A stretch of 64,000 bases of DNA from Halobacterium salinarum DSM 3754 (lineage in GTDB: Archaea > Halobacteriota > Halobacteria > Halobacteriales > Halobacteriaceae), in the NCBI RefSeq assembly GCF_008124605.1, contig NZ_VRYN01000004.1, positions 1-64,000 on the forward strand, written 5' to 3'. Positions 57,378 through 63,326 of this stretch are shown here, piece by piece. The translations under genes were made by a program, and so were the position numbers. Positions within the stretch are counted from its first letter, which is position 1. Each line of letters starts with the position of its first letter. The notes beneath the pieces were generated by a model that saw only the letters and a list, made by a program, of their open reading frames with translations, ran no database searches and was not told where the DNA came from.

Positions 57378-59183
57378 TTACTGTCGCGTGTCCGGCCAGG
57401 GCGTGTCCGGGTCGCAGCCACCATCGCTGTCGATGACCGTCGCCAGCAGCTTCTGCTGGGCGCGCCGCAAGTGGTTGTGCAGCGTGGGGGCTGTCACGCC
57501 CATGTCGGCCGCGAGGTCCTCGGCGGTCGACTCCCGGGGCCACTCGAAGTAGCCGGCGTGAAACGCCGCCCGCAGGACCGCCGCCTGCTTGTCGGTGAGT
57601 GCGTCGTGCAGCGACGCCCCGTCGCGCTGCCCCGTCTCGTCGCCGCGGGCGCGCTCGCGCTTGGCCGCCAGCGACACGCCGGGGAACGCCGTGGCGAGGG
57701 CATCGAGGAGCGCACGCACGTCCGTCTCGAGGGCCACGCCGGCGACGACGCGCTCCCCACCGGGGCCGGCGCTGAGATCCCGGATCGTCCCACCGTGGCT
57801 GACGACCGCCATCGCGAGATCAGCGCCCGGGGCCACCCCGACCGCGAGCACCGCCTCGCCGCCCTGGTCGCGGACCACGCGCACGCTCACGACGCCGTCG
57901 TGGTCGTGCAGCCAGTCACGGACGCCGTCCGCGGGTGCGCCGGCGATCCGCACGAAGAACACGAGTGTCTGCCGGTCACCGGGTACGACACCCTCCAGGG
58001 AGAGGTCACACCCCTGTTCGACCGCGGCGCGCGCGAACACCGACCCCGCCCGGACCTCGAACGTGACTTCGAGGACGGTGTCCGTCAGTAGGCGGTGGCG
58101 CTGCTCGGCCAGCGCGACCGCCCGGCCCACGCGACGCCCCAGGTCCGTGATGAGGGTGCGCTCGCGCTGGCTGAACCGTGCTGTTGACGCCCCCACGGCC
58201 AGGACGCCGTGGGCCGCCTCGGGTCCGGCAACCGGAACGACACCCATCGCCTGAACGCCCGCCGCCGCGGCGTGCTCGCGCAGCGCCGCGACCGCCGGGG
58301 CAGCGCTCGCGGCCGGCGTGAACAGCCCTGTCCCGTCGTCGAGGGCGGCTTGCACGAGCGTCGCGCCCGGGGCGGCGCTCGCGTCGTCGCGGATCGCACG
58401 GTCGCCGCCCGCGGTCGCGGCAACCGTCACGTCGTCGCGGGTCGTCGGCCGCGCCAGCCACGCCATCTCGTAGGCGTCGCTGGCGGCCAAGGCCTCGCAG
58501 ACGGCCGTCTCGACGGCCCCCCGAGTGCTCGCATCCGACAGCGCGTCCCCCGCCGCGAGGACGGCGCGGTGCGCTTCGTCCACCCGGTCGTGTGCCCGCT
58601 GCTCGCTGCGGTCCGTCGGCGCTCGCGTCGTGCCGTCGAACGCCCGCGCGATGGCGTCCCGGTCGACGGCGTCCACCGCGGCGTACTGATCGAGGCTGGC
58701 GAGCCGCGACCAGCCGCCGACTGCCGCCACGACACGCGGGTCGACGCCCGCCCCGGTGAGCAGCCGCCTGGCGAAAAACGAGCGCAGGTCCTGGGCGGAG
58801 ACCCCGTCCAAGCCGGCCGTGTCGGTGCGCTCGGCGACCGCGTTGACCAGCGTTTGGACGCGGCGCGCCGACACGTCGACCAGCGGGTCGTCGTCGGCCA
58901 GGCCCGCGGCGTCGGCGCGCCGCCGGATGTCGCGCTCGACCGCGGGCGGGAGGTAGGCGTCGCGGTCGCTGCCGCCGTCGGCACCGGGCACGGCCAGGAA
59001 ATAGTGTGTGACACCGTCGTGGTCGTGGGGCGCGACGTCACACGGGCGGACGCGCGGTATCTCGGCGGACGTCAGCCCGACCTCGCCGGCCAGCCCCACC
59101 ACCACTGCCTCCCGGGGGGTTTCGGTTGCGCCGCGCAGCTCCCGGTAGTCGGCGTCGGTCACGCGACCGTCAGCCCCACGCAT
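57378..59183 (-). CDS. Bat-type regulator with a degenerate tyrosine-recombinase domain
   Basis: 601 residues in three parts. Residues 1-175 resemble the tyrosine recombinase catalytic domain: QDLRSFFARRLLTGAGVDPR, GGWSRLASLDQY. Arg134, Trp158 and Tyr167 are retained, but the box I Arg is Thr38 and the box II His is Ser135, so DNA cleavage is unlikely. Residues about 215-365 are a GAF-like sensor. The C-terminal half is the bacterio-opsin-activator domain with HTH DLAADMGVTAPTLHNHLRRA. It probably regulates acs and carbon metabolism (inference). Confidence 0.85.
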   Translation of the reverse strand: MRGADGRVTDADYRELRGATETPREAVVVGLAGEVGLTSAEIPRVRPCDVAPHDHDGVTHYFLAVPGADGGSDRDAYLPPAVERDIRRRADAAGLADDDPLVDVSARRVQTLVNAVAERTDTAGLDGVSAQDLRSFFARRLLTGAGVDPRVVAAVGGWSRLASLDQYAAVDAVDRDAIARAFDGTTRAPTDRSEQRAHDRVDEAHRAVLAAGDALSDASTRGAVETAVCEALAASDAYEMAWLARPTTRDDVTVAATAGGDRAIRDDASAAPGATLVQAALDDGTGLFTPAASAAPAVAALREHAAAAGVQAMGVVPVAGPEAAHGVLAVGASTARFSQRERTLITDLGRRVGRAVALAEQRHRLLTDTVLEVTFEVRAGSVFARAAVEQGCDLSLEGVVPGDRQTLVFFVRIAGAPADGVRDWLHDHDGVVSVRVVRDQGGEAVLAVGVAPGADLAMAVVSHGGTIRDLSAGPGGERVVAGVALETDVRALLDALATAFPGVSLAAKRERARGDETGQRDGASLHDALTDKQAAVLRAAFHAGYFEWPRESTAEDLAADMGVTAPTLHNHLRRAQQKLLATVIDSDGGCDPDTPWPDTRQ

Positions 59184-59294
59184 ACTTCGTGATTATTTTG
59201 AATGCCGAACCATCAACCTTGCGTGGTCGTCCGCGCCGACTGCGCCGGGCTGACGGGGGCGGCGTCGCGGCGTGGCCGCGTCCGAGTGGCGGCG

Positions 59295-59483
59295 TCAGTC
59301 GTCGTCTCGCCCGGCGATGAGGGCGTCGATGTGCGCGGGGCTGATCGAGCACCCGCACGGGCTGGCGGTGGCGTCGGTCGGCCCGTGCTGTGTGACCGCC
59401 TGCACCCCCCGCCCGCAGTTCGGACAGTCGAAATGCTGTGCGCCGTCGGAACGCTCTTCAGCGTCGTCGGTGGACTCTAGCAT
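59295..59483 (-). CDS. Cys-rich zinc-ribbon miniprotein
   Basis: A 62-residue protein: MLESTDDAEERSDGAQHFDC, then CPNCGRGV and ASPCGCSISPAHID, four to five cysteines arranged as a zinc ribbon. Start at 59483 chosen because upstream codons are unlike the family pattern of acidic N-termini. It is upstream of and on the same strand as the Bat-type gene. Function unknown. Confidence 0.6.
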   Translation of the reverse strand: MLESTDDAEERSDGAQHFDCPNCGRGVQAVTQHGPTDATASPCGCSISPAHIDALIAGRDDD

Positions 59484-59714
59484 GGCTTCTGTAGCTGCGG
59501 TACAGGAGCCCGCGCGAGCCTGCTGCCCTAACAGCGAGGCTCGCACTTTTCGAGGTGATAGGTTGGTCGCCTCTCGAATAGCTCCTGTAGCCGACAATGC
59601 TGTAGGCAAGCCACTTAGTGCTTACCGACAGTCTTGTACACATAACATTGGTTATTGTACACGCTTCCATCGTGATGAAAATAGTAATCCGAGAGGCACT
59701 GCGTACAGATTTGC

Positions 59715-59993
59715 ATGCCCCGGCCGGAACTCGCGGAGTGGATGACACCGATGGACCGGGATATTTTGGAACTTCTCTGGAATGATGGCCGCCGAGAGCT
59801 GATCCTGAATCCGGGTACTATCGAAGCAAACACCGACTGGAAACGCCAGTCCATCAGACAGCACATCCTAAAGCTTCGAGAACACGGACTTGTCGAATAC
59901 TACGACGAAGACCGCGCGCTCTATCAGCTTTCTGAGCACGGCCGTATGTGGCTGGTGGGGAACCTTCCAACAGAAGAACTCGAAGAAAAATAG
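59715..59993 (+). CDS. Winged-helix DNA-binding protein (PhiH repressor-like)
   Basis: A 92-residue wHTH: MTPMDRDILELLWNDGRRE, IEANTDWKRQSIRQHILKLR as the recognition unit, EHGLVEYYDEDRALYQLSEHG as the wing. Such proteins are common next to haloarchaeal viruses and islands and are usually repressors. It lies 119 nt ahead of the SIR2-TPR gene on the same strand and may control it. An internal ATG at 59742 is an alternative start. Confidence 0.75.
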   Translation: MPRPELAEWMTPMDRDILELLWNDGRRELILNPGTIEANTDWKRQSIRQHILKLREHGLVEYYDEDRALYQLSEHGRMWLVGNLPTEELEEK

Positions 59994-60083
59994 ACTCCGA
60001 TCGTCTCTGGTGTGTTCTGTGGGCAGGTTGGATTTAGACCCCCGTTAGCCTACAAATCATTCCCGGAATATTACCCCCATTAC

Positions 60084-60091
60084 TATTTATA
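60084..60091 (+). promoter_or_regulatory. TATA box of the SIR2-TPR gene
   Basis: TATTTATA is centred 25 nt before the ATG at 60113: a strong, own, leaderless promoter. The SIR2-TPR gene need not depend on the upstream wHTH transcript. Confidence 0.65.
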
Positions 60092-60112
60092 CGGGGAATA
60101 AATAATCGACTG

Positions 60113-62893
60113 ATGACAGACTTCTCCAGCGACTCTGAAAAGGATATCCAGAGGTGCTCGGTCGATAAGTTAGTGAGAATTATCGACAGATCCCCTGACG
60201 GGTCCTATTCCTTCCTTGTCGGTGCTGGCGTTTCTAACCCTTCACCGGCAGATATCCCACTAGGTGGAGATATGGTTGAGGAGTTTAAACATGATATCTA
60301 TTCAGAGCAAGAGCGGGATTCGAGTCTGAACGAATGGGCGAATCAGTACGAGTCTGAACACAGGGAAGACGAATCGGAATACGGCTTCTGGTTCGCTGAG
60401 GCCTATCCCAACCTCACCGCTCGAAGAGAGAAAATCAGCCAGTTTGTCGAGGGAGCTGATCCGCCGCTGGGTCAAATGATTCTTGCCTCGATGCTTCAAC
60501 AAGGCGTGGTTTCACACGTATTCACTCCAAATTTTGACGACCTACTGGTGAACGCCTCAATTGACCTGCCGGGTCGAAGGCCACTATTTGTCGACCATGA
60601 CGCCCGTGCATCCCGAATTCAATTCCCGTCTGATCGTCCGGCGATCATGAAAGTCCATGGCGACTTTCTCCACTACACGAAAAACACCGATGAAGAAACT
60701 TCAAGTCTGAATGAGCCGATTGAACAGGCATTCAAGAAGTCACTCCAATCTTGGGGCTTGGTTGTACTCGGTTATGCAGGGTGGGATGAATCCATCATGG
60801 GGGTCTTGGAAGAAACCGAAGTATCTGAGAAAGGCCTATATTGGTGCAAACTGTCCGGCCACAACGTCAATGACCGTGTTGAGAAATTACTTGAGTCTAA
60901 AGATAATGCCTACCTTGTCGAAATTGAGGGATCAGAAGAGTTCTTTACCAAGATACTAAATAGATCAACTGAAGATTATCTTCCAAACCCAGAGGAGTTC
61001 GTCGAAAAGGCCAAGAACACTGCTGACAGAATCCGCGACCTACTGCGTAATCAAGAAAACGTTTCCAAACGCCATTTTCTGGAGGCGATGAGTGAGGACC
61101 GAGACTATTCAGGAGAAATACCGGATTCCGTTGACGAAACAGACGAACTTTCTGAAGTCGTTAACCTAATAGAAAAAGATAAAAATAAGTCTGCAATTGA
61201 AACACTCAATTCAATAATTGAGTCTACTGGTAATCCTCATTTTGCATATTATTATCGTGGATTGGCAAGGCAATCAATTGGTGAGGATGAAAAAGCAATT
61301 CGCGACTTCGATACTGCAATCGAACTTGATACTGAGTTTACTGACGCATATCGAGGTCGGGGCATTTCGAAAAGACGCATTGGTCGCCATAGTGAAGCCT
61401 TAGAAGATCTCAACGAGGCGATCAAGCTTGACTCCGAACACTCCGCGACCTACGTTGGCCGAGGGCGTGTGAAGCGGGAACTTGGAGAGTTGGAAGCGGC
61501 CATCGAAGATCTCAACGAGGCGATCAAGCTTGACCCCGAACACTCCGCGACCTACGTTAACCGGGGGATTCTAAAGCGGGAACTTGGTGAGTTGGAAGCG
61601 GCCATTGAAGACTACAATGAGGCGATCAATCTTGGCACCGAACACTTCGCGGCCTACTTTAACCGGGGGAATGCAAGAAAGGAGCTCGGAGAGTTAGAAG
61701 CGGCTATCGAAGACTACAATGAGGCGATCAAGCTTGACCCCGAAGACTCCGCAGCCTACTTTAACCGGGGGAATGCAAGAAAGGAGCTCGGAGAGTTAGA
61801 AGCGGCTATCGAAGACTACAATGAGGCGATCAAGCTTGACCCCGAAGACTCCGCAGCCTACTTTAACCGGGGGAGTATAAAGCGGGAACTTGGAGAGTTA
61901 GAAGCGGCCATCGAAGATCTCAACGAGGCGATCAAGCTTGACCCCGAACACTCCAGGGCCTACGTTAACCGGGGGAGTCTAAAGCAGGAACTTGGTGAGT
62001 TGGAAGCGGCCATCGAAGACTACAATGAGGCGATCAATCTCAGCACCGAACACTTCGCGGCCTACTTTAACCGGGGGAGTCTAAGGCAGGAACTTGGTGA
62101 GTTAGAAGCGGCTATCGAAGACTACAATGAGGCGATCAAGCTTGACCCCGAAGACTCCGCAGCCTACTTTAACCGGGGGAGTCTAAGGCAGGAACTTGGT
62201 GAGTTGGAAGCGGCCATCGAAGACTACAATGAGGCGATCAAGCTTGACCCCGAACACTCCAGGGCCTACGTTAACCGGGGGAGTCTAAAGTGGGAACTTG
62301 GAGAGTTAGAAGCGGCCATCGAAGACTACAATGAGGCGATCAAGCTTGACCCCGAAGACTTCGCGGCCTACGTTAACCGGGGGAGTCTAAAGCGGGAACT
62401 TGGTGAGTTGGAAGCGGCCATCGAAGATCTCAACGAGGCGATCAAGCTTGACCCCGAAGACCCCCGTCCGTTCATCAATCGCGGCGCCCTAATGCTAAAA
62501 GATGGATCCGTTGAGGAGGCAATCAATGACTTTGATCAAGCTATTCGGTTTGACTCGCAGGATGTATCTGCTCTAAGTGGTAGAGCAGAGGCTAAAATTG
62601 TGTGTGGAGAGTTTGAAGACGCGTATCAAGACGCTCGTAACGCAAAAGAGGCAAGTAAAACTAAAAAAGATGAGTTTTCTAGCCTGATGTTAGTGCTTAT
62701 ATCAAAAGTCTGTCTAGGGGATGAAACAGATTCTCTTGAAGAAGAGTATCAGTCAATCGGAAAAAGTGAATTTACGATAACCTGGGACTACTCCATCCTC
62801 AATAATTGGTTGGATTCAACTAATCTTTCGCGGAGTGATGAGCGCCACATTGAGGACATTATTGATTTCCACAAAGAGCACACTGAGGGGTAA
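60113..62893 (+). CDS. SIR2-domain / TPR-repeat protein, candidate antiviral NADase
   Basis: 926 residues. The N-terminal SIR2_2 domain (about 15-290) has the NAD loop VGAGVS (36-41), HVFTPNFDDLL with Asn140 and Asp142, catalytic His182 in MKVHGDF and GLVVLGYAGWDE. Residues about 300-376 are a helical linker. Fourteen 34-residue TPR units fill 377-850, of which units 3-12 are nearly identical. A helical tail ends the protein. Stand-alone SIR2 proteins with long helical C-termini (DSR1/DSR2, ThsA) deplete NAD+ on phage infection; the same role is inferred here. GC is lower than in core genes. Confidence 0.88.
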   Translation: MTDFSSDSEKDIQRCSVDKLVRIIDRSPDGSYSFLVGAGVSNPSPADIPLGGDMVEEFKHDIYSEQERDSSLNEWANQYESEHREDESEYGFWFAEAYPNLTARREKISQFVEGADPPLGQMILASMLQQGVVSHVFTPNFDDLLVNASIDLPGRRPLFVDHDARASRIQFPSDRPAIMKVHGDFLHYTKNTDEETSSLNEPIEQAFKKSLQSWGLVVLGYAGWDESIMGVLEETEVSEKGLYWCKLSGHNVNDRVEKLLESKDNAYLVEIEGSEEFFTKILNRSTEDYLPNPEEFVEKAKNTADRIRDLLRNQENVSKRHFLEAMSEDRDYSGEIPDSVDETDELSEVVNLIEKDKNKSAIETLNSIIESTGNPHFAYYYRGLARQSIGEDEKAIRDFDTAIELDTEFTDAYRGRGISKRRIGRHSEALEDLNEAIKLDSEHSATYVGRGRVKRELGELEAAIEDLNEAIKLDPEHSATYVNRGILKRELGELEAAIEDYNEAINLGTEHFAAYFNRGNARKELGELEAAIEDYNEAIKLDPEDSAAYFNRGNARKELGELEAAIEDYNEAIKLDPEDSAAYFNRGSIKRELGELEAAIEDLNEAIKLDPEHSRAYVNRGSLKQELGELEAAIEDYNEAINLSTEHFAAYFNRGSLRQELGELEAAIEDYNEAIKLDPEDSAAYFNRGSLRQELGELEAAIEDYNEAIKLDPEHSRAYVNRGSLKWELGELEAAIEDYNEAIKLDPEDFAAYVNRGSLKRELGELEAAIEDLNEAIKLDPEDPRPFINRGALMLKDGSVEEAINDFDQAIRFDSQDVSALSGRAEAKIVCGEFEDAYQDARNAKEASKTKKDEFSSLMLVLISKVCLGDETDSLEEEYQSIGKSEFTITWDYSILNNWLDSTNLSRSDERHIEDIIDFHKEHTEG
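61445..62464 (+). repeat. Ten tandem 102-bp repeats encoding TPR units
   Basis: Units of exactly 102 bp (34 codons) run from residue 445 to 784. Units 5 (61649-61750) and 6 (61751-61852) differ by one silent base. Alternation between AIEDLNEA and AIEDYNEA and between KLDPE and NLGTE/NLSTE shows blocks copied as groups. DNA-level identity points to recent unequal recombination. Confidence 0.95.
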
Positions 62894-62937
62894 TCTAAAT
62901 ACGCGAATTCAGTAAATATAACCTAAACGACATTTTG

Positions 62938-63219
62938 CTACCCACGACGGCCATCAGGCACCGACCTCCGCCGTCGTGAGACACGCTTCGGGCTCGTACG
63001 TGATTCGGGCAGTTCCGAGAACGCGTTTTGAAAGCAGCTGTCAGAAATGTTGCCCTCGCTGTCTACTGGTTCAGCGCAGATGTCCGCATTCAGGTTCTCG
63101 TTGAACTGTGACTCCCTTCTGTTGGTGCTCTCTGTATCCTCCTGTCCACCCTCACGCTTGGTCCCGCGAATTCCGTGAACGCGTGGTGGCCGCCACAGTC
63201 TCCCCCCTCGAACAGGCGC
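62938..63219 (-). pseudogene. Start-less open frame, possible gene remnant
   Basis: 93 codons open from a TGA at 63220-63222 to a TAG at 62938, with no ATG, GTG or TTG near its beginning. The composition is protein-like rather than random GC-rich: GTKREGGQEDTESTNRRESQ, FNENLNADICAEPVDSEGN. I recognise no family. The remaining 62.9-63.3 kb intergenic sequence shows nothing else. Confidence 0.3.
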
Positions 63220-63326
63220 TCAAACAGTGCTCCCCGTCGCCATCGGCGTCAACAGCCCAGATCGATGACGAACCGATCCTGTTATTGACCAAAATCCATA
63301 CAAACGCTAGACCAATACCTGTTGAT

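Follow-up and report, generated by a model that had tools for sequence, protein, structure and literature searches.

A SIR2–TPR gene with an in-frame homogenised repeat array in a low-GC island of Halobacterium salinarum

The SIR2–TPR gene and its predicted protein

The 64-kb window of Halobacterium salinarum DSM 3754 analysed here (the whole stretch of 64,000 nucleotides) carries on its plus strand, at 60113–62893, an intact ORF for a protein of 926 amino acids that matches Pfam TPR families and SIR2_2 and that AlphaFold models with a mean pLDDT of 82. The protein consists of an N-terminal SIR2 domain, a TPR spiral of about 15 hairpins and a conserved C-terminal cap. The SIR2-like domain (residues 17–284; 60161–60964) is followed by a low-confidence linker (residues 290–343, pLDDT <50; 60980–61141), disordered in the model, and by a TPR superhelix whose 15 hairpins (residues 343–847; 61139–62653) are evident from the secondary structure of the model and from fold matches; four helices then form the cap (residues 851–926; 62663–62890), all on the plus strand. 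The TPR part is modelled with a pLDDT mostly >90 and the SIR2 part with moderate confidence in places (pLDDT <50 at residues 150–173), and since the pTM of the whole model is 0.51, the arrangement of these parts with respect to each other is unreliable. The predicted fold of the TPR part is that of consensus-designed TPR proteins and of the O-GlcNAc transferase (OGT) superhelix (Z 27–29; 29.5 with consensus TPR and 27–28 with OGT TPR in the fold comparison). The protein differs from O-GlcNAc transferase in having SIR2 as its effector and no glycosyltransferase, and the fold is uninformative on the ligand.

The SIR2 part scores above the curated cut-off of Pfam SIR2_2 (PF13289; 29.6 vs 24.5 bits) and is matched by the SIR2-APAZ models of PADLOC (best 3e-48), which together with the pAgo-SIR2 models cover residues 14–302 (one reaches 359), the TPRs coming after. 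Its closest PDB protein is the Sir2 of SPARSA, both by sequence (1e-15) and by profile (3e-33), and the modelled fold matches 8y80_E (Z 21.9) and 8jl0_A (Z 21.4). In the profile alignment to 8jkz, N140 (60530–60532) and H182 (60656–60658) are the equivalents of N142 and H186, which are catalytic in GsSir2 of SPARSA (PMC10781750), and both columns are invariant among the aligned relatives. Judged by its sequence and fold, the domain is of the type of antiphage NADases and not of deacetylases, and it is probably an NAD-destroying suicide enzyme. The same genome encodes on contig 27 a second SIR2 protein (L030, 3364–5109; 581 aa), which is without TPRs and gives a full-length match to PDC-S65, a candidate defence family of PADLOC (E 7.5e-188).

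A sequence-only reading of this DNA had described the protein as a putative sensor and had likened it to STAND and surface proteins. The first description fits repeats fused to what appears to be a toxic-type effector, a SIR2 NADase. The STAND comparison does not hold: no NOD/STAND domain was found among the best 25 of 37 Pfam families, and the disordered stretch between SIR2 and TPR, about 54 residues long, is too short to hold such an ATPase. Nothing observed pointed to a surface protein.

The 102-bp array and exchange between its units

Ten homogenised 102-bp (34-aa) TPR units occupy 61442–62461 on the plus strand in the canonical TPR register and correspond to units 3–12 when the 14 full units are numbered from residue 376. 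Tandem Repeats Finder reports the array at 61403–62458 (period 102, 10.4 copies, 89% matches, no indels) with a score of 1488, which far exceeds that of all other tandem arrays of the window, and the whole array is in frame within one intact ORF. This bears out the ten coding repeats of the sequence-only reading, although its coordinates (61445–62464) lie 3 bp off the canonical register. Its term 'near-identical' captures the similarity of units 3–12 but is slightly generous, since pairs of units differ at 2–23 of 102 bases (mean 13.4), with a mean identity of 0.869 in DNA and 0.805 in protein; the single silent difference that it noted between two neighbours is present in its own register (61649 vs 61751, GCG/GCA). 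The youngest-looking duplication (61652–61874, plus strand) is a 121-bp exact match at a spacing of 102 (61652–61772 and 61754–61874). Identity between units is highest at lag 4 (0.899), and exact matches extend over 84 bp at lag 3 and over 82 bp at lag 4, which is suggestive of the joint duplication of larger blocks that had been proposed; shuffling of the unit order gave P = 0.055, and we do not claim a four-unit higher-order repeat.

In the one further multi-TPR protein observed in this genome, on contig 13, adjacent units peak at 60% DNA identity, and the array is thus not the normal behaviour of TPRs in the genome. That protein (L169) is a large ATPase–TPR protein with the look of a STAND sensor and divergent 35-aa TPRs. 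No second copy of the array was found in its own genome, in a repeat-specific 24-mer DNA scan of IMG/VR or in a distant DNA search of plasmids. Against 392 genomes of the order, the array DNA gave only two further matches, both of them SIR2–TPR genes, and a promiscuous TPR cassette shared among genes was rejected on this ground.

Within units, the four-gamete test fails for 83 of 253 site pairs (55 of 171 when each codon contributes a single site), and linkage between sites falls with distance (permutation P 0.001 for all sites, 0.002 with one site per codon). Both results support a mosaic exchange between units in short tracts, in agreement with the recombination suggested earlier, although some of the four-gamete failures could also stem from recurrent mutation. 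In fungal-type arrays, the repeats of one protein resemble each other far more than they resemble those of its orthologues, and the same relation is seen here: identity among internal units is 0.80 within the H. salinarum protein vs 0.54 to those of the relative in genome G126 and 0.48 to those of Halovenus. The last TPR unit (62564–62665, plus strand) is not homogenised and is conserved across species; last units are 0.41–0.47 identical between species vs 0.24–0.32 to the internal units of their own protein, and those of H. salinarum, G126 and Halovenus group together with a support of 0.976. This clustering of internal units by protein and of the last unit across species is, as far as sequences tell, concerted evolution, in which the ends would be inherited and the middle remade in each lineage. 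The Halonotius 35-aa array is independently homogenised, with a DNA identity of up to 98% between two units, genome G130 has its own homogenised array of a 40-aa type, and the arrays of most family members are less homogeneous. The Halonotius terrestris gene (L033, 5956–8805) holds twelve 35-aa TPR units, some of which alternate as 70-aa pairs.

Changes are unevenly spread over the unit. Helix A (codons 1–12) has a dN/dS of 1.60 (column bootstrap 0.75–5.75) and codons 13–30, mainly helix B, one of 0.07 (0–0.32), the ratio of the two being significant in a permutation test (P 0.0006); counted as minimal changes, helix A shows 15 amino-acid to 3 silent vs 2 to 9 for helix B (P 0.0013). Variable positions are enriched at the TPR ligand-contact positions 2, 5, 6, 9, 12 and 13 (PMC1261162), with 5/6 vs 9/28 (one-sided P 0.03), but the numbers are small, and the same test with the seven most variable TPR positions gave P 0.08. 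In other arrays, the dN/dS of helix A is 0.43 (Halonotius), 0.39 (G126) and 0.17 (Halovenus); it lies above that of helix B in four of the five others, the Bacteroidales array being the exception, and is always <1, so that a value >1 is confined to the H. salinarum array. These comparisons support a unit in which one face is free to vary on a constant scaffold. Positive selection on helix A is not proven, as the interval of 0.75–5.75 spans 1, and because its dN/dS is not significantly >1, relaxed constraint would fit as well.

Relatives and genomic setting

With one genome per species in the comparison set, a SIR2 of the same kind is present in 8 of 392 genomes of the order at E <1e-40, that of H. 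salinarum included, and the gene is absent from all 12 other species of the genus. In the scan of the genome collection, the window protein alone returned no relatives and an alignment used as query did. Family members occur in Halovenus aranensis, Halonotius terrestris, Natronococcus sp., Haloferax gibbonsii, a Thermoplasmata MAG and a Bacteroidales MAG. Their middle region comprises no TPR (L029), one to three (L024, L031, L037), five to seven (G126, Halovenus) or about 15 (H. salinarum, Halonotius), so that the TPR number differs widely while the SIR2 domain is retained in all and the cap in most of these relatives; the searches used found no TPR in L029 or in the SIR2 relative L038. The cap can be aligned in seven proteins, including those of the Thermoplasmata and Bacteroidales MAGs, and the last 105 residues are 41% identical between the H. 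salinarum and G126 proteins; Halonotius and Natronococcus have in common a different C-terminal end. Two relatives look degraded, one in G130 whose SIR2 region is interrupted by an in-frame TAG (L028) and one in the MAG G033 with a short ORF, a shortened start and a divergent end (L036).

The gene lies in a low-GC island with approximate ends at 59200–63300, the core of which (about 44–55% GC vs 65–75% around it) spans the SIR2–TPR gene and a small winged-helix (wHTH) regulator directly upstream (59715–59993, plus strand). The GC content drops to the core values from about 70%. A similar wHTH adjoins the SIR2–TPR genes of Halfgib1 and G033 and is also found in the island of a sister species. 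On one side, the island is flanked by a Bat-like regulator, named by general resemblance and not by a profile match, and on the other, just past the window, by tRNA-Lys(CTT) and a DHH-family gene. Flanks were located in other genomes by tblastn with the named flank proteins. In the sister species G007 and G005, a distance of about 30 kb separates the same two flanks, between which G007 carries a XerC-type integrase (36% to the Halfgib1 integrase) and homologues of two H. salinarum genes, the island wHTH and the small ORF at 59295. The G007 insert also encodes a CBASS cyclase and a 2TM effector (L153, 10254–11971). Within the window, a regulator-like gene at 57378–59183 weakly matches the archaeal XerA tyrosine recombinase profile in its N-terminal part (E 3e-4). 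In Haloferax gibbonsii, the pleolipovirus Halfgib1 carries a relative as cargo, again with a wHTH gene directly upstream, and the Halfgib1 provirus has been reported to be active (PMC7911831). From this context we infer that the gene was acquired horizontally and that the island is of a mobile kind, and the interval between the Bat-like gene and tRNA-Lys has the appearance of a defence hotspot.

A possible TPR-based sensor and its alternatives

Considering the architecture, the catalytic pair, the predicted superhelix, the conserved ends and lineage-specific middle, the contrast between helices A and B, the mosaic units and the mobile context, all read from sequence, we propose, as a reading that is rather probable, that the gene encodes a single-gene, horizontally acquired, STAND-free sensor for abortive infection in which the TPR groove sets off NAD hydrolysis. 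In this hypothetical scheme, (i) the TPR superhelix would act as receptor, with a groove lined by helix-A side chains that could bind an infection-derived protein or peptide and a C-terminal cap that closes the spiral; (ii) binding, or assembly caused by binding, would switch the inactive SIR2 domain to NAD hydrolysis, so that the cell stops; (iii) since the internal units are near-copies in DNA, they would exchange and duplicate by recombination; (iv) each lineage's array would be homogenised on its own scaffold with a constant helix B, while its unit number would change and its groove residues would be shuffled, a shuffling that may have adaptive value. The island, the defence genes in a sister species and the Halfgib1 cargo make a role in defence or superinfection exclusion the best inference.

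The array could instead be a structural rod or oligomerisation scaffold on the same SIR2 defence effector, its homogenisation being a neutral by-product: helix B would pack the spiral, helix A would merely tolerate change, and length and residues would vary without specificity. Such a scaffold, which we regard as a good deal less probable than a sensor but as the most serious of its competitors, would agree with a helix A interval that includes 1, with the weak lag structure of the array and with the common action of SIR2 NADases through assembly and filaments (PMC12700824), whereas the enrichment of variation at ligand-contact positions (P 0.03) speaks against it, although the numbers are small and not decisive. 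A regulatory or metabolic SIR2–TPR enzyme of the cell or of an integrated element, and not an immune sensor, appears unlikely: the adjoining wHTH and the relative on a provirus are compatible with it, but the SIR2 domain is of the antiphage type, the distribution over the order is patchy, and the equivalent site in a sister species holds defence genes.

That the exact unit number arose as an assembly artefact is very improbable. An assembly error could alter the count, chiefly at the 121-bp exact tandem duplication; but this is the only exact match longer than 84 bp, each unit has distinct variants, the contig reads across the whole array, with unique sequence on either side, and homogenised arrays recur in independent assemblies.

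Among known systems, SPARSA (PDB 8in8, 8jkz, 8y80) provides the nearest SIR2 by sequence and fold, with the same Asn–His pair. It is, however, a short pAgo with a SIR2-APAZ NADase, whereas the H. salinarum protein has no APAZ and a TPR superhelix after SIR2; among the ORFs listed for its neighbourhood, only some of which were profile-scanned, no short Argonaute was recognised. DSR2, Avs5, ThsA and other antiphage SIR2 proteins likewise combine a SIR2 NADase and a region for sensing or assembly in one protein, but here the putative sensor is TPR and no STAND or SLOG part was found, nor were the PADLOC models named for DSR2, Avs5 and ThsA among the matches at E 0.01. HfxHg1_085 of Halfgib1 (MW344766) belongs to the same SIR2 family (37%) and has a wHTH directly upstream; it differs in its length of 555 aa and its few divergent helical repeats without a homogenised array, and it is annotated only as a TPR protein.

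The closest parallel to the array itself is found in fungal NLRs with highly conserved WD, ANK or TPR repeats (PMC4986451), which share an N-terminal effector, near-identical C-terminal repeats, concerted evolution and amino-acid variation on the interaction face. Units 9–12 are on average about 87% identical over 136 aa, which is close to the 85% over 100 aa of the fungal proteins, although the two values were measured differently (PMC4986451). The fungal proteins possess a NOD/STAND switch, whereas the H. salinarum protein is archaeal, without NOD and with SIR2 as effector; strain polymorphism and positive selection have been demonstrated for the former (PMC4986451). Lacking both NOD and APAZ, the protein was filed under neither fungal NLRs nor SPARSA. 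Superstructure-forming repeats such as TPRs have been described in prokaryotic conflict systems by Kaur et al. 2020, whose main text does not contain the word SIR2 (PMC7159879), and the literal phrases SIR2-TPR and TPR-SIR2 were absent from the open-access literature searched, though a description elsewhere is possible. More tentatively, archaea and proviruses may carry a STAND-free counterpart of fungal NLRs, a one-protein NADase receptor whose TPR groove is recombined in frame within populations and gives each lineage a private recognition surface. If true, receptor diversification via repeat homogenisation, as documented in fungal NLRs, would also exist in archaea and without an ATPase switch. 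As the family is small, single-gene and present in the genetically tractable Haloferax, the effect of repeat shuffling on sensing is directly testable. SIR2 proteins that are broadly of this type, many of 860–875 aa, are also encoded on viral and prophage contigs (L085–L102); their C-termini are without detected TPR, which suggests sensor swapping behind a single effector.
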